Shown piece after piece: positions 1,381 through 47,905 of a stretch of DNA of 52,164 nucleotides; the first letter of the stretch is position 1, and each line of letters starts with the position of its first letter. The DNA is taken from positions 1 through 52,164 of the forward strand of contig JACRBM010000051.1 in the NCBI GenBank assembly GCA_016219275.1. The letters run 5' to 3'. The notes under the pieces are model-generated. The model saw only the letters and a list, made by a program, of their open reading frames with translations. It was not told the DNA's origin and did not search any database. This DNA is from Chloroflexota bacterium (lineage in GTDB: Bacteria; Chloroflexota; Anaerolineae; UBA4142). The translations under genes and the position numbers were made by a program.

Positions 1381-4300
1381 ATGAACAGTGTCCTTGCGCT
1401 GGTTCGCTGGTTCTGGCAAAAACGCGTGGCTGTCACGGTGGCAGCCATCCTCCTGTTCCTCGCCGCGATGATCGCGGCAACGTACTTGGCGTTCAACCCA
1501 CTCACGGTCGAATTCGACAACCAAAAAACGATTGTCGTCGGTCCGACCCAGTTCGCGCCCGAAAACCCATCCGCCGTCCGCGTCGTCGTGCGCGATCTCA
1601 ACGATCAGCCAATTGCGAACGCGAACGTCACGGTGATGCTCGCGCCCAAGGGCTTGGGGTTCCCGCAAACACTCTACACCGGCAAGACCGATGCGCGCGG
1701 CACCGCGCCCGTGTCGTTCACAATCCCGGAAAACACCGCGCGCGAAATGAATCTCGTCGTCGAAACGAATTCCAACGTCGGACGCGACCGCATTACGAAA
1801 GAGATCACCGTTCAGCGAAGTTACAAATTACTCATTACGACGGACAAACCCCTCTACCAACCCGGTCAACTCATTCACCTGCGCGCGCTCGCGCTCGGCG
1901 CGCTCGATCGCGTGCCGGCAAAAAATCAGAGCATTGAATTTTTGATCGAAGATCCGAAAGGCAACAAAGTCTATCGCAAGACCGTTCAATCATCCGCGTA
2001 CGGCATCGTCAGCGCGGATTTTCAACTCGCGGACACGGTCAATGCCGGCAACTACAAAATCACCGCAACACTCGGCGACACGAAATCGGAAAAGACGGTG
2101 AACGTGAAACCGTACCTCCTGCCGAAATTCAAAATCGTCGCTGAAACCGAACGCACCTACTATTTGCCGGGCGAACGTGTGACCGGCAAACTGCGCGTGG
2201 ATTATTTCTTCGGCAAGCCGGTCGCCAAAGGCGAGGTGACGATCAAGGGCATCGTCTACGATGTTGCACGCGCCGAGACGATCAACCTCGCCGGCAAGAC
2301 GGACGACACGGGCGCGTACGCGTTCTCGTTCACGCTGCCAAATTATTTCGCGTCGTCCGGGCTCACTAAAGACCGCGCCGATTTCGGTCTCGAAATTTCG
2401 GTGACCGATCAAGCGAATCACACCGAGCAAACCTCGTTGACGCTCCCGATTGCGAACGGCGCGATCATGATTGACGCCGTGCCCGAAAGCGGCACGCTCG
2501 TCGCGAACGTCGAGAACATTGTCTACGTACTGACCTCGTTGCCGGACGGCTCGCCGCTGGAAACCGAATTGACGATTAGCGGCGCTGGCGCGCCATTGCA
2601 AGCGCACGCCGGCAAGTACGGACTCGCCGAGATTCGTTTCAAGCCGCAGTACTCGAACCTCACGCTCGCGATCGCCGCGCGCGACGCCAAGGGTCGCACC
2701 GTGATGCGCAACATTGCTCTACGCGCCGAACCGACCGCGCAAATCTTGCTGCGCGCCAACCGCGCGACATATCGCGTCGGCGAGACGATGAGACTCGATG
2801 CGTTCGTCACCGGCGGCGCTGGCTCGGTGTTCTTCGATCTCATCAAGGAAAAACAAACGTTCTCGACGCGCGCGGCAGATGCGAACAACGGTCGCGCGAG
2901 TGTAGACATTGACGTGACACCGGAACTTGCCGGCACCGTCCAGGTTCACGCCTACCAAGTCGAACGCGATGGCACGATCAAGCGCGACACGCGCGTCGTC
3001 GTCGTCGAGCACGCCGGCGAGTTGAACATCGCGATCAAACCCGACCGCGATGTGTATCGTCCCGGCGAAATGTCCCAAGTCACGTTCAACGTGACGAACC
3101 ACGAAGGCAAGGGCGTGCAATCCGCGCTCGGCGTGACTGGTGTGGACGAAGCCGTATTCGCGCTCGCCGAGCAAGACCCAGGATTTGCGAAACTGTATTT
3201 CCTCCTGCAAAACGAACTACTCGAACCGAAATACCAGGTCAAGGGATTTGCGCTGCCAGAAGTCGTCAGTTACGAAACAGCCAAGCCCATCGAACTCCGC
3301 ACCGCGCAAGACCTGTCCGCGCGCGCGGCGTGGGCGAACGCCACGCCATTCGACCTGACGATGCGCGTCAACTCCTTGCCGGAAAAACAGGCGGCGGCAA
3401 CCAAAGCCGAGCGAGAACGTTTTAACAATCTCTTCGATGCGCTCGCGGTCGTTCTCTCGATTGTGCCGTTGCTGTTCGGCGGATTCGTGATGGCGTGCCT
3501 CAACGCGAAAAACATCCTGGGCAAAGCGATGGCGTGGTGGGCAGGCGCGTTCGCGATCTATTTCATCGTGTCGCCGATTCTTGTTAGCGGCGCGCTCGTT
3601 ATCGGCGCGCTTATGTTTTACTTTAAACTCGGGTTGCTCGTCCTCGCGATGCTTGGATTCGCGTGGATTGTCGCGCTTGGTTTTCTGGTCGCCCATGCGA
3701 TCGCGAAGCAGGATCGCCGGCTCCAAATCGCGATTGCGCTCCTCGTTGCGTACCTCATTCTGTTCGGCATCCTGGGAACCTTTGCCGGTCAAGTTGACCT
3801 GGGCGGCACGCGCATGTTGGTCATCCTGTTGACGTTTCTTGCCGGACTCGCCGCGCTCGTGTTGCTCGGCGGCGGCTTGATTCTGCAAGGAGAAAAAACG
3901 CCCGGCTATGCGGCGATCATCACCACCCTCCTCGTCATCTTTACCGCGATTCTCCTGTGGCAAATGCCAAACGTGAGTCCGCTCTTGCGCGTGATGGGAA
4001 ATCCGGCAATCTATAACCCGGTCGGACAACTCACCGGTTGCGCGTCGCAAACCGCTGCACCAACCGCCGCACCGGCGATGCAACGCGCGGCGGCAACTGC
4101 CGCGCCCGCGCCCACCTCTGCGCCGGCGGCTGAAGCGCAGAAAGCGACTGCCGCCGGACAAGAACCACCACGCTTGCGCCAATATTTTCCGGAAACGCTC
4201 TACGTCAATCCGCAAGTCATCACCGACGAGCGTGGCAACGCGACGATTGAAATTCCGCTCGCCGATTCGATCACGACCTGGCGGCTCGCGGCGATGGCAT

Positions 4301-6270
4301 CGTCGCAACGCGGCGAACTCGGGTCGGCGAGCGCGGGACTGCGCGTGTTCCAAGATTTCTTCGTTGACCTCGATCTGCCGGTCGCGCTGACGCAGAACGA
4401 CGAGATTTCAATTCCCGTCGCGGTGTACAACTATTTGCCGCAAACGCAAAAAGTGCAACTCCAAGTCGAAAAACAATCCTGGTTCCAACTGCAGGACGAC
4501 GCGGAGAAATCCATCACGATTGCGTCGAACGACATTGACGTGATCTACTTTCGCATCAAGGCGATGCAATTTGGAATGCAGAGATTGAAAGTGACCGCGC
4601 TCGGCGAAAAAATGTCGGACGCGATTCAACGTGAGATTCGCGTCTATCCCGACGGCAAGCCGTTCGAATTGACGCAGAGCAACTGGCTCAAGGGCAACAC
4701 GACCCAGGTCGTCGAACTGCCGGCGCAAGCAATTCCCGGCGCGTCGCGCATCGAAGTAAAAATCTTTCCGGGCGTGATGAGCCAGGTCGTGAACGGACTC
4801 GACGGTCTTTTGCGAATGCCCTTTGGCTGATTTGAGCAAACGACGTCGGTGACGTTCCCAAATGTTCTCGTGCTCAATTACTTGAAAGCCACCAAGCAAG
4901 CATCGCCCGAAGTTCAACTGAAGGCGGAGAATTTCATCGCGATCGGTTATCAACGCCTGTTGACGTTCGAAGCGACGGGCGGCGGGTTCTCGCTGTGGAG
5001 CGGCGGGACGCCCAGCGTGATGCTCAGTGCGAAAGGTCTGCTCGAATTCGGCGACATGGCGCGCGTATATCCAATTGATCCATCGCTGCTCGAACGCACG
5101 CGCCGCTGGTTGTTGTCGAAACAACAATCGGATGGAACCTGGGTCGGCACCGCTGCCTGGGATCATCCACCCGAGTCGGCATCCCAGGATCGCTTGCCGC
5201 TCACGGCAGTCGTCGCGTGGGCAATTGCCGAATCCGGCGGCAAGAACGAGTCAGGGACAAGTCGCGCCATCGCGTACATCAAGGAAAACGCGTCACGCGC
5301 GAACGATCCGTACACGCTCGCGCTCGTTGCTAACGCACTCGTCGCGTACGACCCGAATGATTCCACCGCACGCGATGCGCTGGCGCGGCTCAATCAGATG
5401 CAAGTCGCGGAAGGCGAGGGCGCGTACTTTGCGACCAAGGTCGGCTCATTCACCGGCGCGTATGGCGTTTCCGGCAACATCGAAACGACCTCGCTTGCGG
5501 CGTACGCGTTCTTGAAAGGACACGCCCACACCGATACGGCGCAACGCGCGCTGACGTACCTCATGCAAAAGAAAGACGCGCGCGGTACCTGGGGCACGAC
5601 ACAGGCGACGATTCTCGCGCTGCGCGCGCTCGTGCAATCGGCGATAGACGCCGGCGAGCCGGCGCAGGACGCGACCGTGCGCGTGTCGTTCAACGGCGCG
5701 CAAGCCAAGCCCATCGTCGTCAACAAGGAAAACTCGGGCGTCGTCCAGGTCGTCACGTTCGACGACGTCAACCCTGGGACGAATCGCCTGGCGTTCCAAG
5801 TCGAGGGCAAGGGCTCGCTCGCGTATCAAGTTTCGACGAATTACTACTTGCCTTGGTCGGCGGTGCCGCCCACGCCGGAAAAAGACAAACTGGTGGACAT
5901 TCAGGTGCGGTACGATCGCACGGCGCTCGCGGTAAATGATGAAGTCGGCGTGACCGCGACGATTCGCTTGGTGAAGGAGGGCAAGGCGCGCATGTCCATC
6001 ATTGATCTCGGCGTGCCGCCTGGCTTTACCGTCGCGACCGAAGACCTGGACGCCGCGGTCAAATTGAAAAACATCGCGCGCTACGAATTGACCGGGCGAC
6101 AGATCATCGTCTATCTCGACGAGTTCGATTCGAAAAAACCGGTGACGTTGGCGTATCACTTGAAAGCGAAATTCCCGTTGCGCGCGCAAGCGCCCAGCTC
6201 GACGACGTACGATTACTACAATCCGACCGTCGGCTCCACGCAAGCGCCGCAGTTGTTGACGGTTAAATAA
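1381..6270 (+). CDS. Bacterial alpha-2-macroglobulin with in-frame TGA at the thioester cysteine (candidate selenoprotein)
   Basis: Read through one TGA, this frame gives 1629 residues. Residues 15-37 form a signal-anchor helix. Macroglobulin-like domains follow, with the hallmark TDKPLYQPGQ near 155. About six membrane helices lie at roughly 685-860, then an Ala/Pro/Thr-rich linker (885-930) and the A2M domain from YFPETLYVNP at 935. The thioester domain starts at 1150 and a receptor-binding-like domain ends the protein. A2M proteins trap proteases and can bind them covalently through a Cys-Gln thioester in the motif CxEQ. Here the codon in the Cys position (4828-4830) is TGA: the frame reads RMPFG, stop, FEQTTS. 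The frame stays open for 480 codons after it, with conserved thioester-domain sequence. The internal membrane block between MG and A2M domains is unusual. AAGGAG lies 8 nt before the ATG. Alternatives are a nonsense mutation or a base error; a separate gene starting at GTG 4849 is unlikely, as it lacks a ribosome-binding site and would begin mid-domain. Confidence 0.9.
4828..4830 (+). other. In-frame TGA at the thioester Cys codon (possible selenocysteine, residue 1150)
   Basis: The family motif here is GCxEQ; the DNA reads GGC TGA TTT GAG CAA, so only the Cys codon is altered, one base from TGC or TGT. TGA is used as an ordinary stop elsewhere in the window (for example at 22334-22336 and 33404-33406), so a genome-wide reassignment is excluded; site-specific recoding or a mutation/error remain. 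Confidence 0.5.
4842..4856 (+). promoter_or_regulatory. SECIS-like hairpin downstream of the in-frame TGA
   Basis: Five perfect pairs (4843-4847 with 4851-4855), extendable by a G-U pair (4842/4856), close a GGU loop at 4848-4850. Seventeen nucleotides separate the TGA from the loop. Bacterial SECIS elements lie inside the reading frame just after the UGA, with a short upper stem and a G/GU at the loop start; the E. coli fdhF element has a GGU-containing loop at almost the same distance. A competing longer pairing (4832-4838 with 4871-4877) is also possible. Recognition by SelB is inference. Confidence 0.45.
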
Positions 6271-6337: not shown

Positions 6338-8317
6338 CTAGCGCGAGGGTTTGCGCTTGCGCGCGGCGGCGCGGCGCGGACGCGCTTGCGTCGCGACCGG
6401 TTTCTTGGGCGCTTGACCGTGCGCGTTGAGCCACTCGACCGCGCCAGGCGTGCGTCGCCAATAGTTGAGATGATCCGCTGCATACGCAATCGCTTCGCGT
6501 TCGTCGCCCATGCCGATCAGGTCGGGCAGACGATTGGGCACGCGCTTGCGCCCCGTCAAGTACGCCGGCACATGCGGATTTTCTTCGAGCGCGTCGGCGA
6601 GCGCCTTGTTCGCGCGCGCCGTTGCGCCGTGCTTGCGAAATGCCAATAGCGCGCGCGTGTATTGCCACGTCGCCGACCAATCGTCGTGATATTGTTTGAG
6701 CAGCGGCGCAATCTCCTCGTCGCGTTCGAGTTGCAACAGCAAATCCACGAGCAAATAACGAATCCCCTGATTATCATTCGGATTCAAGCGCAACATCTCG
6801 CGATAATGCGCGAGCGCGTCCTCCTGGCGATTCAAACGCCACAGCGTTTCGGCAAGTCCATGGCGCGCGCGCATGTACGGACGCGTTTCCAGCAAGCCCC
6901 AAAAGTGACCGGCATTCTCCGCAAAGAATTCTTTGCCTAACGCGCGCGCGCCCGCCGCGACGCCTTGCGCGTAATACTCCATCGCGCGTTGCAGTGTGTC
7001 TGCCTCTTCCTGCGCGAGCAACACGTACGCATCCGCGCAGTCCGCGGAAATCGTCAGCGCGTCGTGCGCCAGCGCGATGCGCTTGGCGGGATTCGTTTCC
7101 TCGAACGCATCGTACATCAAATCCTGCGCGCGATCTAAAGCAGATTCGGATGTCTCGCCACGTCCCATTTGGCGCGCGAGTTCTTGCATCGGACGCTCCA
7201 TCACGCGGCGGTCGAACGCGCGCGGCTCGTCGTCTTTTTCCACATCACCCTCAAAATCCGCCCACTCGACGCGTTGCGCGGGTTGTTCGGCAAGCGGCAA
7301 ATCGCCCGCGGGATATTTCACCGCGACCTGAAGGGTGCCCGCATGTGTTGGCACATAGAGCGTCATTTCGATGGGTTCGAAATCGCCGCGCCCGTTCGGC
7401 TTCAAATGATCGCGCACGAGCATTGGAATCGCGCGGAGCGCGACCTCGTACCACAAGAGTTCGGCGCGTGTGGGTCGCCGCACGGTGCGCGCTTTTTCGA
7501 CGACGACGACAATCGGGTACGCGTTCGGCGCGGCAATCGCCCAGCCGAATTTTTCGATCGCGTCGAGATCGTCGAACGGCATTTTGGTTGCGTCGTCGAA
7601 AAAGCACGAGTGCAAACCCTCGGCGGGAATCGCGTCAAGCGGATTATCGTCTTCGGTGAACGTGCGCCGCACATTGTCCCAGGTCGGATACATCGCCAAA
7701 CCGTACTCGACGCCGCCTTGCCCCATCACAATCGCGTACCGAAATTCATTTTCGTACGGATGCCGCAACGCGAGCGCGTGATAATTGCTCAGTTGCACCC
7801 ACGGCGCGGCGCGATAAAATTCGGCGGCGGCAGCGTAAAAACTCGCGATGAGTTCGGGAGAGACGTTGGGCACGGCGACGAGCGCGGGATTCTCCGGTGT
7901 GCCCTGGCGCATGTGCGTTTCGAGTTCGCGGATAATGTCGCGCACTTCGTCGGGCATCGGCGCTTCGATGAGGTCTATTTCGAGTTTAGCGTCGGCGAAG
8001 AACGCTAGCAGTTTCTCGGCGAGCGCAGAATCACTGACGACGAGACGTTGCGGCGCGCCCGGCTTGCCGCTGTTCGGTGTGGGATGGCGCGCCGCGTTCG
8101 ATAACGCGTCCCAGACTTGGCGCGGCGTGGGCGACCCAGGAACAAGTTCCGTGCCGCGCATCGCGCCATCGTCCGCGTTGAAGGTGATGATGATGTACGG
8201 GCGGTAAGGTTTTTCGTCGGGCGGCGCAACCCAGGTTCGCAATTGCGCGGTCGCGATGAGCCAGGTTTCGTCAAGACGCGGCAGTCGCGCCAGCCCGCCG
8301 GCAGTTGATCGTCGCAT
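6338..8317 (-). CDS. TPR-like (ST7-type) protein with conserved N-terminal domain of unknown function
   Basis: The 659-residue product has no signal peptide or membrane helix and is probably cytosolic. Residues 1 to about 360 form one or two globular domains of unknown function (start RLPRLDETWLIATAQLRTWV), which I associate from memory with the DUF6930/DUF7309 proteins. The C-terminal half is helical and repeat-rich: helix pairs around ALAHDALTISADCADAYVLL and RHGLAETLWRLNRQEDALAH are TPR-like and recall the ST7 family. The last ~20 residues are a basic tail (RPRRAAARKRKPSR). The start at 8317 is chosen because AAAGGAG lies 6-7 nt before the ATG; an upstream extension to 8500 would translate a palindromic repeat and is rejected. 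It converges on the A2M gene and appears monocistronic. Function unknown; a protein-protein interaction role is inferred only from the repeats. Confidence 0.8.
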   Translation of the reverse strand: MRRSTAGGLARLPRLDETWLIATAQLRTWVAPPDEKPYRPYIIITFNADDGAMRGTELVPGSPTPRQVWDALSNAARHPTPNSGKPGAPQRLVVSDSALAEKLLAFFADAKLEIDLIEAPMPDEVRDIIRELETHMRQGTPENPALVAVPNVSPELIASFYAAAAEFYRAAPWVQLSNYHALALRHPYENEFRYAIVMGQGGVEYGLAMYPTWDNVRRTFTEDDNPLDAIPAEGLHSCFFDDATKMPFDDLDAIEKFGWAIAAPNAYPIVVVVEKARTVRRPTRAELLWYEVALRAIPMLVRDHLKPNGRGDFEPIEMTLYVPTHAGTLQVAVKYPAGDLPLAEQPAQRVEWADFEGDVEKDDEPRAFDRRVMERPMQELARQMGRGETSESALDRAQDLMYDAFEETNPAKRIALAHDALTISADCADAYVLLAQEEADTLQRAMEYYAQGVAAGARALGKEFFAENAGHFWGLLETRPYMRARHGLAETLWRLNRQEDALAHYREMLRLNPNDNQGIRYLLVDLLLQLERDEEIAPLLKQYHDDWSATWQYTRALLAFRKHGATARANKALADALEENPHVPAYLTGRKRVPNRLPDLIGMGDEREAIAYAADHLNYWRRTPGAVEWLNAHGQAPKKPVATQARPRRAAARKRKPSR

Positions 8318-8501: not shown

Positions 8502-10742
8502 CTACGCGCCGCGCGACTTGTCGAAATGACACGGGTGATGGACGGCAGCGGTTAGTTCACTCAACAGACGAATCAACTCGGTGGGACTGAACAGATTGAA
8601 TTTGGCATGTGACGGTGTCATGCCAACCTTGATCGAGTACGCGGTCGGCGGCAGAATCTTGAAGATGTCTTCATCCGAACCGTCGTTGCCAGCCGCCAAA
8701 ATAAAATCAAAACTCGGATCCGCGAGCCAGTGCATAATGGACGTGCCCTTGCTCACCGAAGCGCTACGTACCTCAACGATTTTGTTGCCCGACAGCACTT
8801 GCACATCCGTATTCGCGATAAAGTGAACCAGATCGTCCACCAGTTCTTTTGCGCGCGCCGCGCCGAGACCAAGGTCTGCTTTGCGATAATGCCACGCGAT
8901 CGAAAACTCCTTCTCCTCGACGAATGAACCGGGCACCCGATCCGCGTACAGGTCGAGGATCGGTAGAACCTGGGTCTTCCAATCGTTCTTCAAGGGTCTG
9001 AACAAACGCCACGCGCCATCCTTTTCGCTCAACCATGCGCCGTGCTCGGCGATTAAGTTAACGCCGAGCGCGCCAAACCAAGCGGAGAGCGTTTCCTTGT
9101 CGCGTCCGCTGATGAGCACTACCACATTGCTTTGGTCCGCGGCGAATGCCGCGAGAATACGGATCAGGTCTTTGCTGGGTTTTGCCGTCTGCGGTTGCTC
9201 GGTGAACGGCGCGAGCGTGCCGTCGTAATCCAGAAGAAACAATCGGCGTTGGGCTTGATGGAAATCCTCCGTCAGTTTTTGTACCGCAAAGTAGCCCAGG
9301 TATTTGGCGTCGAATTTTTCTTGCTCGCCGTGGATCGCAATCAGGGTTTGGACGAACTCACTCGCCCAGCTCACGACGTCGTACCGCTTCAAGCGCGTTT
9401 GCATGATCGTGTTGCGCCGGATCTGCTCGTCCCGGGGCATCTCCAGGGCTTCTTTGAGCGCGCGCGCAATGTCCTCCGCGTGATTGGGATTGATGATGAT
9501 GGCTTCGCCCAATTCTTTTACCGCTCCCGCCATCTCGCTCAGAATCAAGACCCCCGTTTGATCCGTGCGCGTGGCGATGTACTCTTTTGCCACCAGGTTC
9601 ATGCCATCGCGCAACGGCGTGACCAGCACCACGTCCGTCGCCGCGTACAAGGGCACGAGCGTAGTAATCGGCAGAAATTTGTATTGATACAGAATCGGAG
9701 TCCATGTGAGCGTCCCAAATTCACCGTTGATTTCTCCGACCAGTCCATCAATCTGGCTCTTGGTTTCTTGATAATGCTCGACCCCGATGCGGGAGGGGAC
9801 AACAATCATGGACAGCATGACTTTTTCGCGCCATTCCGGATTCTTCTCGAGAAAGCGCGCATAGCCGTGCAGGCGATTGATCACCCCCTTGGAATAATCC
9901 AAGCGATCCACCGACAAAATGATCTTGGCGTCTGGGAAGGTTTTCCTCAGTTTGTTTTTGGACTCGCGCGCCTCGGGGCTATGGGCGATCTTCTGGAATC
10001 GTTCGAAATCAATCCCCATCGGAAACGTTTCGGCTTTTTTGATGTGCCCATCTACGATCATTTTGCCCATGGTGTGTTCGTGTCCCAGCAAACGCAGCAC
10101 GCAGCGCAAAAAGTATTCGGTGTAATCGTGCGTGTGGAACCCAAGCAGGTCTGCGCCCAAAAGACCCAGCAGGATTTCTTTGCGCCAAGTTTCCGGCATC
10201 AGCCGAAAGATCTCAAACGATGGAAACGGTATATGGAGAAAAAACCCGATCGGCACATCGGGCGCGCGCGCGCGTAGCATCCTGGGCAGCAGCATCAGGT
10301 GGTAGTCGTGAACCCATACGACATCGCCCGGTTTTAGAATTTCCAACACCGTGTCGCAAAAAGTTCGATTGACTTGTTCATATTGGTTCCAATAATCCCA
10401 ATCGTACACCGCGTAGGTTGGGAAATAGTGAAAGAGGGGCCAAATAGTCTTGTTGCAAAAACCGAGGTAGAACTTGTCCATCGCTTCTTCGGTGAGGAAG
10501 ACTGGGTAGGCGTTGAATTCGCGCGCGCGCGTTTTCAACGCTTCTCTTTTTTCGCCCTCCGCGGAGGCGCCGGGCCAACCGATCCACACATAGTTGAACT
10601 GGGTGAACCCCGATCCTTTCAACGAATCCAGGTAGGCGCTCAATCCCGAGACGAGACCGCCCACACTGTCTTTGAATTTCAACTGCCCTTCCTCATCCAC
10701 GGCAGTAATGGGCAATCGGTTCGATACGATTAACAGTCGCAT
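8502..10742 (-). CDS. otsAB: Bifunctional trehalose-6-phosphate synthase/phosphatase
   Basis: A 746-residue fusion of both enzymes of the OtsA-OtsB trehalose pathway: UDP- (or GDP-) glucose plus glucose-6-phosphate gives trehalose-6-phosphate, which is then dephosphorylated to trehalose, a compatible solute. Residues 1 to about 475 are a GT20 glycosyltransferase with the N-terminal SNRLPI, the glycine-rich loop GGLVSGL and the motif WVHDYHLMLLP. Residues about 490-745 are a HAD phosphatase with the nucleophile motif DYDGTL near 505-510, LISGRDKETL, and the late acidic motif GNDGSDEDIF. All key motifs are intact. AAAGGA lies just before the ATG. Cytosolic. Fused OtsAB proteins are known in several bacterial groups; the fusion guarantees equal amounts of both activities. 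The neighbours on the same strand include stress-type proteins (CsbD, YeaQ), which fits a role in osmotic or desiccation stress, but they are not obviously one operon. Confidence 0.95.
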   Translation of the reverse strand: MRLLIVSNRLPITAVDEEGQLKFKDSVGGLVSGLSAYLDSLKGSGFTQFNYVWIGWPGASAEGEKREALKTRAREFNAYPVFLTEEAMDKFYLGFCNKTIWPLFHYFPTYAVYDWDYWNQYEQVNRTFCDTVLEILKPGDVVWVHDYHLMLLPRMLRARAPDVPIGFFLHIPFPSFEIFRLMPETWRKEILLGLLGADLLGFHTHDYTEYFLRCVLRLLGHEHTMGKMIVDGHIKKAETFPMGIDFERFQKIAHSPEARESKNKLRKTFPDAKIILSVDRLDYSKGVINRLHGYARFLEKNPEWREKVMLSMIVVPSRIGVEHYQETKSQIDGLVGEINGEFGTLTWTPILYQYKFLPITTLVPLYAATDVVLVTPLRDGMNLVAKEYIATRTDQTGVLILSEMAGAVKELGEAIIINPNHAEDIARALKEALEMPRDEQIRRNTIMQTRLKRYDVVSWASEFVQTLIAIHGEQEKFDAKYLGYFAVQKLTEDFHQAQRRLFLLDYDGTLAPFTEQPQTAKPSKDLIRILAAFAADQSNVVVLISGRDKETLSAWFGALGVNLIAEHGAWLSEKDGAWRLFRPLKNDWKTQVLPILDLYADRVPGSFVEEKEFSIAWHYRKADLGLGAARAKELVDDLVHFIANTDVQVLSGNKIVEVRSASVSKGTSIMHWLADPSFDFILAAGNDGSDEDIFKILPPTAYSIKVGMTPSHAKFNLFSPTELIRLLSELTAAVHHPCHFDKSRGA

Positions 10743-30425: not shown

Positions 30426-30454
30426 TTGCTTTGCGCGTCGAAACACGCTATAAT
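30426..30454 (+). promoter_or_regulatory. Probable promoter of the histidine kinase gene
   Basis: TTGCTT (30426-30431), 17-bp spacer, perfect TATAAT (30449-30454). It lies downstream of the in-frame codon at 30431, supporting the later start at 30503. Confidence 0.5.
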
Positions 30455-30502
30455 CGTGAGCACAAGATTCGTATTCGATCCGCATCTTTGGAGACCACCG
30501 CG

Positions 30503-33406
30503 ATGTCTGCAGTACCGTTTGTCGGCAACATTGACGATGCGTCCTTCACCCCAGCCGAAGCGTGCGCGCTTGTGCGTCTACTCGACGCGCTCCAACTCCA
30601 CGCGTCCGACCGCGATGCGTTGTTGCGCGCCGCGTTCGAGCGCGTCTGCCAAGCGTTCAACGGCGCCGGCGGTTGCGCGCTGATCCACCCATCCCCCTTG
30701 CGTCTGGCATATCATTCGAATCTCCCCCCCGCGCTTGTCGCACATCTGCAAAATGCGCTCCCCGCCGAAGAAGTAGACTCGGTCGCGTTCGCGCAGAACG
30801 CGTTCGCCGCGCACAACGTCGCGTGCGACATCCTGCCGTTGACCGCGCGCGACCGAATCGTCGGCGTTCTCTGCATCACCACTGCCTCACATTCGCCGGC
30901 GTGCGGCGACGTGTGGCGCGCGCGTGCCGGCGCGTGGATTGGCGACGCGCTCGCACGCGCGCACGAGCAGACGCTCCCCCGCCAATCCATCGAGTGGTAT
31001 CGCGAGTTTGTCGAACACAGCCCGGACGCCATTTGGGAAAGCGACGCGCAAGGACAACTCGTCTTTGTGAATGATGCGACGTGCGAGTTGCTCGGATATA
31101 CGCGCGCCGAGATGCTCGCCAAATGCGTCAAAGAATTCGAACAGGACCCGCTGACCTATCGTGACGCCGTGCGGCGGGAATTGCGCGACAAGGGCATGTT
31201 GGTCAACAAACTGGCGCACCTGCGAACGAAGAATGGGCTGATCAAAACGTTTCGTTTCACCACGCGCCAGGTAAGCGACCAACAAGGCAACCCCATTCGA
31301 TTTCAAACCATCATGCGCGATGTGTCGGATCAGGAAGAGTTGGCGCACTCGTTGCAACTCAGCAATCAGGCGCTCGCCGCGTTGAATGGCATCGCCAATA
31401 TTTTCAGCCGACCGTCCGAATTGTCGCACGCATTGACCTTGGTCTGCGAACAGATCGCTTCGATCACTGGCATGGAAACCGTTGCTATCCACCTGATAGA
31501 CCCAACCCGGTCGTTTCTCGACATGGCGGCGCAGCATGGTCTCAGCGACACATTACTGCCCCAAGTTCAACGGCTAGGTCTGGACGATCCGATCACGCGC
31601 AGCATCGCCCTTGAAGGGCGCGTGATCGCCGAGCGCGATGTAATGACATTCGTGGGGACCGGCTTCGCCGGTCCCCGCAGCGAAGGGTATCACGCGGGAA
31701 TCTGCGCGCCGATTCGCCGGCGCGGCGAATCCGCCGGCGTGTTGTTCGTCGGCAGCCGGCTCGTCACCGGGTATCGGCAATCGGACGTGGACCTATTGAC
31801 GAACGTGGCGAATCAAATCGGCGTGGCGCTAGAAAACGCCGACCTGTATCTGCAAATGCAAAACCGCGTCCGCGAGTTGGAGGGCTTGGCGCAACTCAGC
31901 ACGGCTTGCGTCTCGACGCTCGACCCCGACTCGTTGTATCGCCTCGTCGTAGATTCGACGCTCGAATTGCTCGCGGCGGATGTCGCGGAAATTCGCCTGG
32001 TGGAAAACACGCACCTTGCGCGCGTAGCGATTCGCTTGCGCGACGGCGAACCGCGTTCCCACGCGCCGATCAGTCTCGCTGGGCTGGAGGCGCTGGTCAA
32101 CTCGCACAAGCCGCTCATCATCAACGACCGGGACAACGACCCACATACGACGCCGGAAATCCGTGATGCGTTGGCGCTGAGCGACTGGCGCGCGATGCTG
32201 GCGGTGCCGCTGTACACACACGATCGCTTGATCGGCACGTTGGCGGTTTTACGCGCGCTGCCGCATCCCTGGTCGCGCAAAGAGACTGATCTGTTGCGCA
32301 CCGTCGCGAATCAAGTCGTCAACGCCATTTACAACGCGCAGTTGTTTCAAAAGGTGCTGGCAGAACAACGGCAAACCAAAGCGATTTTCGACAGCGGACT
32401 GAACGGGCTGTACGTGACCAATGCGCGCGGATACCTCACGATGTTCAACGACGCGGCGGAACACTTAACCGGGTGGCGGCGCGACGAAGCGATCGGGCAA
32501 CCCTGGGAGAAAATTTTTGCCAACGCCGACGACTCGCCGGACAAATCGCTGGTGCATCAAGTCATCGCTGCGCGCAAAAATGTTTATCCGCGCGCCGGGC
32601 GCACGATTCAGCGGCGCGACGGCACACGCATGCCGGTGCTCGAAGCCGCCGCGCCGTTGTTCGACGACAAAGGCAGCGTCCTCGGGATCGTCGGCGCGTT
32701 GTGGGATCTTTCGCGCGAGAAACAAGCGGAATTGGAACGCGCCAACTTGATGGAAGTTTTCGCGCATCAATTGAGCACGCCGCTCACCACGCTCGTCAAC
32801 GCCGCGGAAATGCTCGAACGACCCAGTTTGAAACCAGCGCAACGTGCGGTATTGCTCGGCATTCTCAAGAACGAAGGCGCGCGGTTACAGACTTTTGCGC
32901 GCCAATTCCTCGGCAAAAAAGGCGCGTTCGCTTCATCCGCGCCGGTCAACCTGCAAGCCCTGTCGCTTCTACCATTGGTCGAATCCGCCGTGCAACGATA
33001 CCGCACCGACAATCGGCAGCATCGTCTTCGCATCAAGACGACCCGCCCCTTGCCGCTTGTGCTAGCAGACCCGGAACGCGTCGAGCATGTGCTCGCGAAT
33101 CTGCTCGACAACGCAGTCAACTATTCGCCGGAAGGCACGCCCATTACCATCGCGCTCCGCGCAAGCGACGCGCACGTCGAAGTTGCGGTTACGGATCAAG
33201 GCATCGGGATTCCGCTCGACGAGCAGGAGTTGATCTTTCAACGTTTTTATCGCGTGAGACAACCCACCGGCGAACGCGTTCACGGACACGGGTTGGGATT
33301 GGCAATCGTGCGCGAAATGGTCACCGAAATGCAAGGGACGGTGTGGGTGGAAAGCCGCGTCGGCAACGGCGCGACATTTCGTTTTACATTGCGGAGGCAG
33401 AAATGA
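30503..33406 (+). CDS. Multi-domain sensor histidine kinase (GAF/PAS, cytosolic)
   Basis: 967 residues, no membrane helix. Order: a GAF-like region (20-150), PAS (about 160-285, WYREFVEHSPDAIWESDAQG), GAF (300-460, HALTLVCEQIASITGMETVA), GAF (470-630), PAS (640-740, IFDSGLNGLYVTNARGYLTM), HisKA with phosphoacceptor His755 in VFAHQLSTPLTTL, and HATPase with LLDNAVNYSPEG, DQGIGIP and GHGLGLAIV. All catalytic boxes are present. It senses a cytosolic or diffusible signal, unknown. TTGGAG stands ~10 nt before the ATG. The stop overlaps the start of the response regulator (ATGA), so both are made as a pair. Confidence 0.9.
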   Translation: MSAVPFVGNIDDASFTPAEACALVRLLDALQLHASDRDALLRAAFERVCQAFNGAGGCALIHPSPLRLAYHSNLPPALVAHLQNALPAEEVDSVAFAQNAFAAHNVACDILPLTARDRIVGVLCITTASHSPACGDVWRARAGAWIGDALARAHEQTLPRQSIEWYREFVEHSPDAIWESDAQGQLVFVNDATCELLGYTRAEMLAKCVKEFEQDPLTYRDAVRRELRDKGMLVNKLAHLRTKNGLIKTFRFTTRQVSDQQGNPIRFQTIMRDVSDQEELAHSLQLSNQALAALNGIANIFSRPSELSHALTLVCEQIASITGMETVAIHLIDPTRSFLDMAAQHGLSDTLLPQVQRLGLDDPITRSIALEGRVIAERDVMTFVGTGFAGPRSEGYHAGICAPIRRRGESAGVLFVGSRLVTGYRQSDVDLLTNVANQIGVALENADLYLQMQNRVRELEGLAQLSTACVSTLDPDSLYRLVVDSTLELLAADVAEIRLVENTHLARVAIRLRDGEPRSHAPISLAGLEALVNSHKPLIINDRDNDPHTTPEIRDALALSDWRAMLAVPLYTHDRLIGTLAVLRALPHPWSRKETDLLRTVANQVVNAIYNAQLFQKVLAEQRQTKAIFDSGLNGLYVTNARGYLTMFNDAAEHLTGWRRDEAIGQPWEKIFANADDSPDKSLVHQVIAARKNVYPRAGRTIQRRDGTRMPVLEAAAPLFDDKGSVLGIVGALWDLSREKQAELERANLMEVFAHQLSTPLTTLVNAAEMLERPSLKPAQRAVLLGILKNEGARLQTFARQFLGKKGAFASSAPVNLQALSLLPLVESAVQRYRTDNRQHRLRIKTTRPLPLVLADPERVEHVLANLLDNAVNYSPEGTPITIALRASDAHVEVAVTDQGIGIPLDEQELIFQRFYRVRQPTGERVHGHGLGLAIVREMVTEMQGTVWVESRVGNGATFRFTLRRQK

Positions 33407-40050: not shown

Positions 40051-42750
40051 TTGCAATTGGTCCGCCACCAAATCCAACACCTTCTTGTCGTCGCTATCCT
40101 TTTACTCGGGCTGGCGTTGACCAGTTTGTATAGTTACTTGTTGTTCCACACCCTGGCAGAAGTGTTTAGCGTCGGCGTCGGCATCGGTGTGTTCATCGTC
40201 GCATGGAACGCGCGACAGTGGATCGCCAATACCTATCTTTTGTTTATCGGAATCGGCTTTGTATTTATCAGCATCATAGACGTGGTGCATACGCTCGCGT
40301 TCAAGGGCATCGGTATCTTTCGCGAGTACGACGCTAACTTGCCCACCCAGTTGTGGGTCGCCGCGCGCTATCTCCAAAGTGTTTCGCTCCTCATTGCGCC
40401 GCTCTTCCTGCGCCGGCGGTTGCCTGGATCGTTCATCCTCGCCGGCTATAGCATAGTCACAATTGTTTTGCTCGGAGTGATTTTTGGAAACCTCTTTCCG
40501 GTCTGTTACATCGAAGGGGCGGGTCTCACGCCGTTCAAAATCGTCAGCGAATATATCATTTGCGCGATCTTCACCGCATCCATCTTTGTGTTGATTCGCC
40601 AGCGCCGCCACTTTGACCACGGCATTTTGAATCTCCTGATCTTCGCGACGATCGCCTCGATTGGTTCGGAAATCGCCTTTACGTCGTACTTGGGCGTGTA
40701 CGATCTTGCCAATCTGGTCGGTCACCTTTTCAAGGTCATTGCATTTTACTTGATCTATCTTTCGCTGATCGAAAGTGGTCTGCAAAGACCCTATGACTCG
40801 TTGTTTCGGAGTCTCAAACAAAGCGAGGAAAGCTTTGCGCGCAGTAACGCTTACTTTCGCGCGCTCACCGAAAATGCGCACGATTTAATTACCGTGGTGA
40901 ACGCGGATGGCACCGTGCGATATTGCAGTCCATCCATGCAACGGCTCCTCGGCGATACCGTTGCCGAGATCACCAATCAGAATATGCTGGATTGGATGCA
41001 TCCCGACGATAGAGTCACTTTGACGCGCACATTTACCGCGAGTCTCGAAAACCCCAACCAGGTCACCCACTTTCAAGTGCGGATCTGCCGGAAAGACAGC
41101 GATTGGGCGGTGATTGAAGGAACGATCTGCAACTTGCTCGCTAACCCGGCGGTGGAAGGGCTGGTTATCAACTCACGCGACATTACTGCGCGCAAAAAAG
41201 CGGACCAAGTAATCTCCAATCTCGCCAAGTTTCCCACGGAAAACCCCAATCCGGTATTACGCTTGAACTTGGAGGGCGTCATTCTGTATGCCAACCTAGC
41301 AAGCCAGGGTTTGCTCGCAGAATGGCAAAGCGTAGTGGGAAAATACGCGCCCCCGCTTGTATGCGACTTGGTCAGCCAAGCATTCAAGAACTCGTCGCGG
41401 ACCACCACGGAGATTGTTTGCGGCGAGCGAATCTTTTTATTCTACATTACGCCGGTCGTCGAGGGGGGCTATGCCAATTTCTATGGGCACGATATTACCG
41501 AACGCAAACGCGCGGCAGAAGCATTGCGCGAGAGCGAGGAACGATTCCGGCTTGCGTTCGAAAACTCGAACATTGGCATGGCGATGATAGACCTGAGCTG
41601 GCGTTTTCTGCGCGTCAACCATCGCTTGGGCGAGATTCTGGGCTACTCGGAAAACGAATTGATGGCTCTAAAAGTGAATGACGTGACGCACCCCGACGAC
41701 ATGGACACGAGTCCCCTGTTCGGTCGGCGCGCCCTCGCCGGAGAGATCGAGCATGACGAATTTGAGAAACGGTACATTCACCGGCAAGGGCAGATTGTAT
41801 GGGTGCGCGTGGCAAGTTCACTCGTGCGCGACGCGCGTGGCGCGCCGCTCTATTTTTTCTCACACGTCCAAGACATTACTGCGTACAAACAAGTGGGATT
41901 GCGTCTGCGCCAACTCTCGCGCGCCGTCGAGCAAAGCCCGGCGTCTATCGTCATCACCGATACGGACGGCACGATTGAGTACGTCAATCCAAAATTCACT
42001 CAAATAACCGGCTATACGTTTGAAGAGGCATTGGGCAAGAATCCGCGCATTTTGAAATCGGGCGAGATGGCGCAGGAAACCTACACCGAGTTGTGGAACA
42101 CGATCCTAGCGGGAAAAGAATGGCACGGCGAGTTTCACAACAAAAAGAAGAACGGCGAACGTTATTGGGAATCCGCCTCCATCTCGCCCATCGCCGATGT
42201 GTCCGGCAAAATTACGCATTTCGTCGCGGTCAGAGAAGACATCACTGCGCGCAAGCAGGCGGAGAGGCAATTGTACTATTTGAGCACGCACGATGCGTTG
42301 ACAGGGTTGTATAACCGAATGCACTTTGAGGCGGAGCTCGCGCGCCTGGAATATAGCCGCGCCTTTCCAGTGAGTGTGATCGTCGCCGACGCCGATAATA
42401 TGAAAGGAATCAATGATTCGCGGGGGCACGCGGCGGGCGATGAACTATTGCGGCGCGCGACCGCCGTGTTCCACCAGGTCTTTCGTGCGTCCGACATCAT
42501 CGCGCGCGTCGGCGGGGATGAGTTCGCCATTCTCTTGCCGGCGACGGACGCGTTCACCGCGGAGCAAATTTTGATGCGAATCCACGAAAAACTCGTCGAA
42601 TACCGGGCGACGACTACCGACTTGCCACTCGATCTTTCGCTCGGTGTGGCGACGACCGTAGACGACCACCTCGAAGAAACATTGAAACTCGCCGATCAAC
42701 GAATGTATGCTGACAAGCGCGCCCATAAGCAAAGTGTCAACACCCGCTAG
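40051..42750 (+). CDS. Membrane-bound PAS/GGDEF diguanylate cyclase (MASE3-like sensor)
   Basis: 899 residues. Residues 1-240 form about seven to eight membrane helices resembling a MASE3 sensor domain (WIANTYLLFIGIGFVFISII, then DVVHTLAFKGIGIF). Four PAS-type domains follow (about 270-390; 395-500, degenerate; 505-625; 635-755), the third and fourth with clear PAC ends. The GGDEF domain spans about 765-895 with THDALTGLYNRMHFE and the intact active site RVGGDEFAILL, so it should make cyclic-di-GMP from two GTP. No EAL domain. Start is TTG 40051 with AAAGGAG 8 nt upstream. Single gene with its own promoter. The HD-GYP protein 2 kb further on is the likely opposing activity. Confidence 0.92.
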   Translation: MQLVRHQIQHLLVVAILLLGLALTSLYSYLLFHTLAEVFSVGVGIGVFIVAWNARQWIANTYLLFIGIGFVFISIIDVVHTLAFKGIGIFREYDANLPTQLWVAARYLQSVSLLIAPLFLRRRLPGSFILAGYSIVTIVLLGVIFGNLFPVCYIEGAGLTPFKIVSEYIICAIFTASIFVLIRQRRHFDHGILNLLIFATIASIGSEIAFTSYLGVYDLANLVGHLFKVIAFYLIYLSLIESGLQRPYDSLFRSLKQSEESFARSNAYFRALTENAHDLITVVNADGTVRYCSPSMQRLLGDTVAEITNQNMLDWMHPDDRVTLTRTFTASLENPNQVTHFQVRICRKDSDWAVIEGTICNLLANPAVEGLVINSRDITARKKADQVISNLAKFPTENPNPVLRLNLEGVILYANLASQGLLAEWQSVVGKYAPPLVCDLVSQAFKNSSRTTTEIVCGERIFLFYITPVVEGGYANFYGHDITERKRAAEALRESEERFRLAFENSNIGMAMIDLSWRFLRVNHRLGEILGYSENELMALKVNDVTHPDDMDTSPLFGRRALAGEIEHDEFEKRYIHRQGQIVWVRVASSLVRDARGAPLYFFSHVQDITAYKQVGLRLRQLSRAVEQSPASIVITDTDGTIEYVNPKFTQITGYTFEEALGKNPRILKSGEMAQETYTELWNTILAGKEWHGEFHNKKKNGERYWESASISPIADVSGKITHFVAVREDITARKQAERQLYYLSTHDALTGLYNRMHFEAELARLEYSRAFPVSVIVADADNMKGINDSRGHAAGDELLRRATAVFHQVFRASDIIARVGGDEFAILLPATDAFTAEQILMRIHEKLVEYRATTTDLPLDLSLGVATTVDDHLEETLKLADQRMYADKRAHKQSVNTR

Positions 42751-44788: not shown

Positions 44789-47700
44789 TTAATGGAGTGC
44801 TACCTCCCCGATCAGTTGCAAGAAAATCTCAACGACTTGAAGATCAAAGTGCCGGCCGGCTTGAGCGCGGATATGTTCGCGCACCTCTTGTTTCGAAAGC
44901 GCCGTGCGGTACGGTCGGTCCGACGACATCGCGTCCCACACATCTACCACCGCGAAGATTCTTGCGGACAGCGGAATTTGTTCACCGCTCAACCCGCGCG
45001 GATAACCGGTCCCATCCCACTTTTCGTGATGACAGTGCGGAATGTCCAGCGCGTGGCGCAAGTATTCAATCGGCGCGAGCATATTATACGCGTACTCCGG
45101 ATGCTTGCGCATGACCTTCCACTCTTCGTCGCTCAACGCGCCCGGTTTGAGGAGGATGCTGTCCGGGATGCCCATTTTGCCGATGTCGTGGAGCAGCGCG
45201 CCCCGGCGAACTTGAACCAATTCCGCCTCGTTCAGACCCATCGCGCGCGCGAGACGCAGCGTCATCTCGGTGACGCGCTGAGTGTGCCCTTCCGTCTCTT
45301 TGTCGCGCAGATCGAGCGCGCGCGACCAACCCTCGATGGTCGCATCATACGAAAGCACCAGTTCGCTGTTCGCACTCTGCAAACCGTTGAACAGTTCGGC
45401 GTTGTCTATCGCGATGGCGGCTTGCCCGGCGAGCGTTTCAAAAAAATCCATCCACTCGGGGTCGGGACTGAGCAGGGCGCGATGGAAAACTTCTAAAACG
45501 CCTTTGACCTTTCCTTTGGCAATGAGGGGAACACTCAAGTAGGCGATGAAATCCTCGCCCGCTGTGAGATGGGCTTTAGTGAATGGACGCGCTGCCTCTT
45601 TCAGATTGGGGATGCTGATCAGCCGGCGTTCCAGCGCGGCTTGACCAGCATGGTCCTCCCCCAGGCGCAGAGTCAAGCGCGTGATGCCGCTTCCCCGAAA
45701 ACCGCGTTCCGCGATGAACTCTAGCGTATTCAAATGTGGGTTGAGCAACAACACAGTGGCGGCATCCACGCGCAGTTGTGTCGTCACATGAGCAAGGAGA
45801 AGATCAAGTGTGATATGAAGGTCAATGTTGCTACCGATCGCTCTATCAATCGCGTGTAGGGCGGCGAGTCGCTCCACCTGCCGCTCAGTCTGTTCGTGCA
45901 AAGTCGCGCGGTGAATCGCATTCGCGGCGATATCGGCGATGGCGGTGAATAGACGCATCTCCCCGTCGCCCATCGCGGTCTTGCGCGCAATCCACAACAA
46001 GCCAATGATTTGTTCCTGGGCGATCAGCGGCACACCCGCGATGGCAGTACACCCGCCAATCAGATCCGGTCGGAACAGTTTCCGGTCGTTTGGCGCATCG
46101 TTGTTCAGGTAGGACTGGCGCGTGGCGAGAACTTGCGCCGTCAATCCTTTGCCCGGTGGAATGCGCTCGCCGGTGACAGGCGCCCAAATCCCCCGACCCA
46201 ATTCGGTTATCGTTTCACCACTGACTGGGTCAAGCATCTCAAATGCCGCGCCATCGGCGTTCAACAAAATCAACAATTGATCGAGAAGGATCGGCAACAT
46301 TGCCGCGCGAGTTTGCGCGACCCGCAAGGCAGTGCTTACATTCGCGATCGCTTCCAGTTCGCGCTCACGGTGCTTGCGCTCGGTGATGTCGCTCACCATC
46401 CCGCGCACAATCGGCGCGGCGACGCCTTCGGTGCGCAGCGTATTGGTGTATTCCCAGATTCGCTTTTCCCCGGTGCTGGTCTGTACCAGCATCAAGCCGC
46501 TGGCTGTTCCATCTCTCTGGATGGCGACCAGATATTCGGCAAACTGGTCGCGCACCTCGGGCGCGAGAATGTCGCGCAGGTTCATTTTCAAGAGAGTGTC
46601 TGCGTCAATCCCCAGTTGTTTTGCCGCCGCCGGGTTCACGGAGAGAATCCGTCCCTGCAAATCGTGGGTGCAGATCAGATCATGGCTGTGCTCCACCAGG
46701 TCGCGATAGCGATCCTCGCTCTCCCTTAGCGCCGCCTCCGCGCGTTTACGTTCGGTGATCAAGGTCAATGTCACGATGATCTGGGTTGGCGCATCGCCCG
46801 CGCTGGAACTCAGAATCGTCTCTCTGCTTTGCACCCATTCCCAATCGCCATCTTTCCGCTTGAGCCGGTACTCGATGGCGCTCGCGCCACCCGCCGATCC
46901 TCTTTGCATGACTTGATGCCAGTGCGCTCTCACCGCAGATAGGTCATCCGGATGAATGGCAAAGAAAATAGAACCTGGCGCAAGCAATTCACTTCGGGAA
47001 TACCCGCAAAATTCTTCACGATTAAAAAAGACCGTCTGGTTCTTGGTTAGATCCAACACATAGATAACGTCCGGCGAGTTAGTGGCAAGGCGATGAAAGC
47101 GCTCTTCACTTTCCTGCCGCGACTTTTCTGCTCGCTTGCGCTCGGTGACGTCGTGCGCGACGACGAGCGCGGCTGGGCGTCCGGCGAATTCTAATTTGTG
47201 AGAGACGATCTCGACATCAATGAGTGAACCGTTTTTGAGCCGGTGTCGCCACTCACCGGAAAATTGAATGTCGGGTCGCGTTTGTCGAACATTCTCAAGC
47301 AGACGCGCGACGTCTTCTGCCGGACGAATGTCCGTGATACGCATCTGCAAAAATTCGTCGCGCGAGAAACCATATTTGAGTACCGCGGTATCGTTGACCT
47401 CCAAGAAAGCCAGCGTTTCCAAATCGTAAACCCACATCGGATGCGGATTGTTGGTAAACAAATAGCGGAAAGATGTTTCACTTTCCTGGAGCGCCTCTGC
47501 CGCGCGCGTGTGTTCAACCCCCAGACGCCTTTTTTCGAGCGCAGCACGAATCACCAGTGGCAATCGCCGAATGTGTTTCGGCGTCTTGATCACGTAATCC
47601 GCCGCGCCGCGCTTGAGCGCCTCGACGGCAATTTCTTCTGAGCCGGTCCCAGTGACAATCACTACCGGCACTTGCGGATTTCTTGCATGAACGGCGTCGA

Positions 47701-47905
47701 GAACTTGGAGCCCTTCAAAGCCCAGGATATTGAAATCACTCAGCACGAGGTCATAATCGCCTTCGGCGAGCCGCGCTTCGAAATCCGCGCGCGATCTTGC
47801 TTCCGTGACTTGAAAACCACCCTGCTCTTTTTCCAACGCATCGCGCACCAACTCACGGTCGAGTGGGTAATCGTCAACGTAGAGAATGCGAATGAGTTCG
47901 CTCAT
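44789..47905 (-). CDS. REC-PAS-GAF-HD-GYP protein (cyclic-di-GMP phosphodiesterase)
   Basis: 1038 residues, cytosolic. Receiver domain at 1-125 (ILYVDDYPLDRELVRDALEK; phosphoacceptor in DLVLSDFNILG), three PAS domains (about 145-260, 270-390, 400-510), two GAF domains (about 520-670 and 690-840) and a C-terminal HD-GYP domain (about 860-1030) with LHDIGKMGIPDSILLKPGAL, the second His pair HCHHEKWDGTGYP and DVWDAMSSDRPYR. All metal ligands of HD-GYP phosphodiesterases appear present, so cleavage of cyclic-di-GMP is likely. Its start overlaps the end of the preceding response regulator by 4 bp; the receiver is probably phosphorylated by the kinase of the same operon. Confidence 0.93.
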   Translation of the reverse strand: MSELIRILYVDDYPLDRELVRDALEKEQGGFQVTEARSRADFEARLAEGDYDLVLSDFNILGFEGLQVLDAVHARNPQVPVVIVTGTGSEEIAVEALKRGAADYVIKTPKHIRRLPLVIRAALEKRRLGVEHTRAAEALQESETSFRYLFTNNPHPMWVYDLETLAFLEVNDTAVLKYGFSRDEFLQMRITDIRPAEDVARLLENVRQTRPDIQFSGEWRHRLKNGSLIDVEIVSHKLEFAGRPAALVVAHDVTERKRAEKSRQESEERFHRLATNSPDVIYVLDLTKNQTVFFNREEFCGYSRSELLAPGSIFFAIHPDDLSAVRAHWHQVMQRGSAGGASAIEYRLKRKDGDWEWVQSRETILSSSAGDAPTQIIVTLTLITERKRAEAALRESEDRYRDLVEHSHDLICTHDLQGRILSVNPAAAKQLGIDADTLLKMNLRDILAPEVRDQFAEYLVAIQRDGTASGLMLVQTSTGEKRIWEYTNTLRTEGVAAPIVRGMVSDITERKHRERELEAIANVSTALRVAQTRAAMLPILLDQLLILLNADGAAFEMLDPVSGETITELGRGIWAPVTGERIPPGKGLTAQVLATRQSYLNNDAPNDRKLFRPDLIGGCTAIAGVPLIAQEQIIGLLWIARKTAMGDGEMRLFTAIADIAANAIHRATLHEQTERQVERLAALHAIDRAIGSNIDLHITLDLLLAHVTTQLRVDAATVLLLNPHLNTLEFIAERGFRGSGITRLTLRLGEDHAGQAALERRLISIPNLKEAARPFTKAHLTAGEDFIAYLSVPLIAKGKVKGVLEVFHRALLSPDPEWMDFFETLAGQAAIAIDNAELFNGLQSANSELVLSYDATIEGWSRALDLRDKETEGHTQRVTEMTLRLARAMGLNEAELVQVRRGALLHDIGKMGIPDSILLKPGALSDEEWKVMRKHPEYAYNMLAPIEYLRHALDIPHCHHEKWDGTGYPRGLSGEQIPLSARIFAVVDVWDAMSSDRPYRTALSKQEVREHIRAQAGRHFDLQVVEIFLQLIGEVALH

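Follow-up and report, generated by a model that had tools for sequence, protein, structure and literature searches.

UGA at the thioester cysteine codon of a Chloroflexota alpha-2-macroglobulin: a predicted selenoprotein

The A2M gene and its product

An alpha-2-macroglobulin (A2M) family gene with one in-frame TGA is found on the forward strand of the window, the 52,164-nucleotide stretch of Chloroflexota DNA analyzed here (contig JACRBM010000051.1 of assembly GCA_016219275.1). The original prediction had described this TGA as the single internal stop of a 1629-codon A2M frame, lying in the Cys codon of the thioester motif CxEQ, and translation of positions 1381-6270 bears this out. The context of residue 1150 is MPFG-U-FEQTTS (U being selenocysteine, Sec), after which 479 codons continue up to TAA. 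The features of the gene, in window coordinates, are as follows.

1381..6270, + strand: predicted A2M-family selenoprotein gene, 1629 aa with one in-frame TGA (translation, Pfam, homologues with TGA at the same codon)
1426..1482, + strand: N-terminal signal-anchor helix, aa 16-34 (hydropathy)
2749..3165, + strand: A2M bait-region domain PF07703, aa 457-595 (Pfam)
3442..3966, + strand: insert of about six transmembrane helices, aa 688-862, in the interval between the bait-region and A2M domains (hydropathy)
4039..4170, + strand: Ala/Pro/Thr-rich linker, aa about 887-930, a candidate bait stretch from its sequence and its position just upstream of the A2M domain
4207..4464, + strand: A2M domain PF00207, aa 943-1028 (Pfam)
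4771..5634, + strand: thioester (TED) domain PF07678, aa 1131-1418, containing Sec1150 and Gln1153 (Pfam; AlphaFold2 model)
4828..4830, + strand: putative Sec codon UGA, residue 1150, where CxEQ has its thioester Cys (69 Cys homologues have TGC/TGT at the aligned codon, 20 others TGA)
4834..4867, + strand: possible lower SECIS stem, GAGCA 4834-4838 with UGUUC 4863-4867 (fold; weak)
4837..4839, + strand: codon of Gln1153, predicted acyl partner of Sec in a (seleno)ester ring (FEQ in 21/21 UGA genes; invariant in the family alignment)
4842..4856, + strand: SECIS-like hairpin, 6-bp stem of five Watson-Crick pairs and a closing G4842.U4856 (21/21 UGA loci versus 0/69 Cys loci; fits the bSECIS model)
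5164..5166, + strand: His1262, aligned with the acyl-imidazole histidine of A2ML1/C3/C4B (phmmer alignment; family alignment)
5986..6231, + strand: C-terminal receptor-binding/CTMG domain PF07677, aa 1536-1617, with an invariant Y-x-Y-Y motif (Pfam; alignment)

With the exception of MG3, the Pfam domains MG2, MG4, A2M_BRD, A2M, TED_complement and A2M_recep are recognized over their curated cut-offs, in the order of the A2M family; no NCBIfam model matches the protein. Residues 932-1629 are predicted to adopt the A2M/C3 thioester-domain fold. The AlphaFold2 model of this region (pLDDT 86.1, pTM 0.81) matched A2ML1, TEP1, C5, A2M and C3 in Foldseek, with a best E of 2.4e-48 to 7q1y, and VIA-align superposed it on human A2ML1 (7q5z) with Z 41.5 and an rmsd of 4.9 over 675 residues.

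The domain order around the TED, the CxEQ-type motif (here UFEQ) with its conserved Gln and the fold are those of E. coli YfhM/ECAM, Salmonella SaA2M and the animal proteins A2M, A2ML1, CD109, TEP1, C3 and C4. Unlike these bacterial and animal A2Ms, the family of the window appears to use a UGA-encoded Sec, with a SECIS, for the thioester Cys; it also carries the insert of about six helices between the bait-region and A2M domains, and most of its Sec forms lack the acyl-imidazole His. The insert is common to the Sec and Cys A2Ms of Chloroflexota and is missing from most homologues of other phyla. A second, distant A2M occurs in the same genome (G000:C45:5091-8465); it is about 26% identical, and its 1721-residue open frame has no internal stop.

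UGA and the hairpin at the thioester codon

Comparison of the read-through protein with 99 relatives revealed ten other genomes in which the A2M holds exactly one TGA, in every case at the thioester codon. GTDB contigs were also scanned with an alignment that starts 3' of the TGA and so takes no account of it; the 80 loci recovered are a mixture of Cys and Sec forms. More loci came from searching 396 genomes of the class, and with duplicates discarded the set comprises 21 distinct UGA loci (the window included) and 69 Cys loci. All of the UGA loci belong to Chloroflexota or, for an unclassified record, group with Chloroflexota in the tree, and they are spread over nine or more family-level groups within the class. 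The stop at the thioester codon is UGA in all 21, never UAA or UAG. Conservation of the TGA and of the hairpin that follows it among close relatives was a check proposed with the original prediction: TGA recurs in 20 other loci, each with the hairpin, which none of the 69 Cys loci possesses. The Cys-form A2Ms of Chloroflexota, such as those of Longilinea arvoryzae (L058) and an Anaerolinea thermophila MAG (L084), belong to the same family, share its architecture and membrane insert, and are about 45-60% identical; they differ in having TGC or TGT at the site, in lacking the hairpin and in usually retaining the acyl-imidazole His.

Elsewhere TGA had been taken for a normal stop, and it is indeed the ordinary terminator of some of these same A2M genes (L013, L014, L021). 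With the Sec machinery present as well, these terminators rule out reassignment of TGA throughout the genome. Several other long frames with one TGA occur in the window; these resemble either the ends of ordinary genes or the overlapping frames that a GC-rich genome leaves open.

The hairpin of the window gene comprises ACGUC (4843-4847), the loop GGU (4848-4850) and GACGU (4851-4855), with the loop separated from the TGA by 17 nt. These five base pairs, the loop and the spacing had been put forward as near to known SECIS geometry, and they are confirmed. The pattern ACGUC-G[G/U][U/C]-GACGU occurs in 21/21 UGA genes and 0/69 Cys genes. Its loop is GGU in 11 of the UGA genes, GGC in 7, GUU in 2 and GUC in 1; the closing pair is U-A in 13, G.U in 7 and A-U in 1, and in 9 genes an additional G-C pair extends the stem to 7 bp. 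The residue encoded across the loop varies among V, A, L and S in the UGA genes, and the third base of its codon is always G. Among the amino-acid-invariant degenerate columns in and around the TED, codons are also invariant at 4/70 in the UGA genes, at +5, +6, +8 and +11 after the UGA, and at 0/44 in the Cys genes. By pair count, the covariation score exceeds that of all 500 shuffles, a value that is inflated by relatedness.

Published criteria for bSECIS elements specify a loop of 3-9 nt, a stem of 4-16 bp, an MFE of <= -7.5 kcal/mol and a distance of 16-37 nt from the UGA, with a G at one of the first two loop positions and most often G or U after it (PMC13188914). The hairpins agree with all of these, having a 3-nt G[G|U]N loop, 6-7 bp, a spacing of 17 nt and an MFE of -8.3 or lower (-8.3 to -11.8 kcal/mol in four genes over 42 nt). 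The folding energy of the window hairpin is ordinary (-8.3 kcal/mol, z -0.30 versus shuffles), and when the same residues are recoded synonymously, five Watson-Crick pairs arise at this place in about 5% of draws. Taken alone, this hairpin is weak evidence; compared across homologous sequences, the element goes far beyond chance. In the possible lower stem 88% of cells are paired, with little covariation. An Rfam search of the window gave no match.

Selenocysteine machinery and the exchange of Sec and Cys

The genome of the window (6.16 Mb, 97.9% complete, a draft of 107 contigs) encodes tRNA-Sec (70.6 bits), SelA, a full-length SelB and SelD, the set of genes that the original prediction had proposed looking for. 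Its SelD gene is interrupted in frame by a TGA, which lies in the usual CAGUASK context; with SelD itself predicted to contain Sec, the organism would have a second, canonical selenoprotein. A tRNA-Sec was present in 20/20 UGA-bearing genomes searched, at only about 50 bits in three of them (G031, G189 and G331), which is still above the family cut-off. Relatives with a Cys A2M also possess the Sec machinery, which is thus necessary, and not diagnostic, for this gene. Two tRNA-Sec candidates each were found in the UGA genomes G108 and G257 and also in G002.

In the SelD genes of these genomes (L124 1531-1580, L169-L186) the Sec codon is followed by two hairpins, the second of which, of the type GGCGCAG-GUU-CUGCGCC about 30 nt after the UGA, is strikingly conserved. 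A SECIS sequence common to the A2M and SelD of one genome was considered and rejected; the conserved SelD hairpins are of different primary sequence. One genome with a UGA A2M (L168, G374:C239; G374:C158) has two selD genes, one in the Cys and one in the Sec form.

The A2M gene shares with selenoproteins that rely on a bSECIS (FdhA, SelD and others) the placement of UGA at a catalytic Cys position, a hairpin right after it, the association with SelA, SelB, SelD and tRNA-Sec, and the existence of Cys homologues elsewhere. From these features and the homologue alignments we infer that the hairpin at 4842-4856 directs SelB and tRNA-Sec to decode UGA4828 as selenocysteine in an A2M, a reading that seems close to certain. 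The original prediction knew of no described selenocysteine A2M, and none was found in the full texts of open-access papers. The 2026 inventory of prokaryotic selenoproteins (PMC13188914) lists 119 families and names no macroglobulin or thioester protein among them, and the deep-Sep paper makes no mention of a selenocysteine A2M. Such genes would normally be mis-annotated as two proteins or as a pseudogene, so the family has probably been overlooked in databases.

The A2M tree requires four Sec/Cys changes, and Sec forms as a single clade are rejected (AU test p 5.6e-6). Conversions of this kind are known for other selenoproteins (PMC1794560), and the tree indicates that Sec and Cys have been interchanged more than once in this A2M family. 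In the sister group of the window's family, within the same order (G016, G019), Sec has likely reverted to Cys, since a Cys A2M stands alongside tRNA-Sec and lacks the hairpin.

The aligned acyl-imidazole His is kept in 55/69 Cys forms versus 1/21 Sec forms of the family alignment. The sole Sec form that keeps it is the window protein (His1262); it is absent from the 20 others. Tested on independent pairs, the association of Sec with this position gives a sign test p of 0.5, there being few independent switches. In C3, C4B and A2ML1 the His forms an acyl-imidazole intermediate and gives reactivity with hydroxyls, while human A2M, which lacks it, prefers amines and still makes a thioester (PMC7864068). 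Loss of the His would be consistent with a bond that can do without it, and the alignment is suggestive only on this point. Having Sec and Cys forms side by side provides a natural experiment on thioester reactivity in the complement/A2M superfamily.

A putative selenoester and competing readings

The A2M is predicted to be membrane-anchored and extracytoplasmic: a signal anchor together with membrane helices that are even in number (about six) would leave both the TED and the macroglobulin half outside. There the TED fold would, most likely, join the Sec1150 selenium to the side-chain carbonyl of Gln1153 in a ring, so that a selenoester replaces the thioester. The Ala/Pro/Thr-rich linker, 3' of the membrane helices, could serve as bait. 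Once a protease cut this stretch the domain would open, and the selenoester would acylate a lysine of the attacker and trap it, much as cutting of the bait has been proposed to expose the bond of the E. coli A2M and acylate the attacking protease (PMC4498604). The case for this selenoester mechanism of Sec1150 and Gln1153 is good, and an A2M with UGA4828 decoded as Sec, when weighed jointly with that mechanism, is highly probable.

Since selenolate leaves more readily than thiolate, the bond should react faster with amines, and it may not need the acyl-imidazole histidine. Most known bSECIS selenoprotein families are redox proteins, whereas the Sec of the A2M would serve an acyl bond as its leaving group. 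The inclination here is toward a genetically encoded protein selenoester with Sec as a non-redox acyl carrier and leaving group, the loss of His having followed the switch to Sec. The A2Ms would then add a selenoprotein family whose chemistry is acyl transfer, outside the ordinary redox use of selenium, and both the role of the conserved histidine and the question of whether a selenoester in a protein can combine stability with readiness to react are open to testing. An exposed selenoester might hydrolyze too quickly to be of use.

Sec1150 might alternatively remain a free selenol with redox activity, serving for example in metal binding or peroxide reduction, and form no selenoester with Gln. 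The selenoproteins known so far are for the most part oxidoreductases (PMC1794560, PMC13188914), and the loss of the acyl-imidazole His from most Sec forms might mean that thioester chemistry has been abandoned. Human A2M, however, makes its thioester without that His. Gln1153 with its neighbors and the Tyr motif of the C terminus are moreover invariant in the Sec forms, and the protein sequence has neither a resolving Cys nor a CxxU motif near Sec1150; besides residue 1150 the whole protein offers only the positions Cys706 and Cys887. A free selenol is accordingly an unlikely reading.

Much less probable again is that the UGA is a true stop, or one subject to regulated readthrough by an ordinary tRNA, yielding a short form without the TED and a long form without Sec. 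A hairpin 3' of a stop can raise readthrough, and the short product of 1149 aa would retain the anchor, MG and bait-region domains. Yet the stop is located only and always at the catalytic Cys, the other stop codons never take its place, Sec machinery accompanies it, and the hairpin conforms to the bSECIS model.

A pseudogene or an error of assembly or sequencing can be given almost no credence, even for a draft genome: the same TGA is repeated in 20 further loci from many independent assembly projects, among them one on a complete chromosome (L063, CP070811.1), which makes a base error untenable, and the gene, whose thioester domain runs on in frame past the TGA as first predicted, shows no further disabling mutation and remains under purifying selection 3' of the UGA and hairpin (pairwise dN/dS 0.13-0.42, well below 1).

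Other genes of the window include, on the reverse strand at 6338-8317, one for a protein that joins DUF6930, DUF7309 and an ST7/TPR-like region and, at 8502-10742 on the same strand, a fusion of trehalose-6-phosphate synthase and phosphatase. A cluster of large PAS/GAF sensor proteins with kinase, GGDEF or HD outputs is spread over 30431-33406, 40051-42750, 44789-47905 and 48355-50706.
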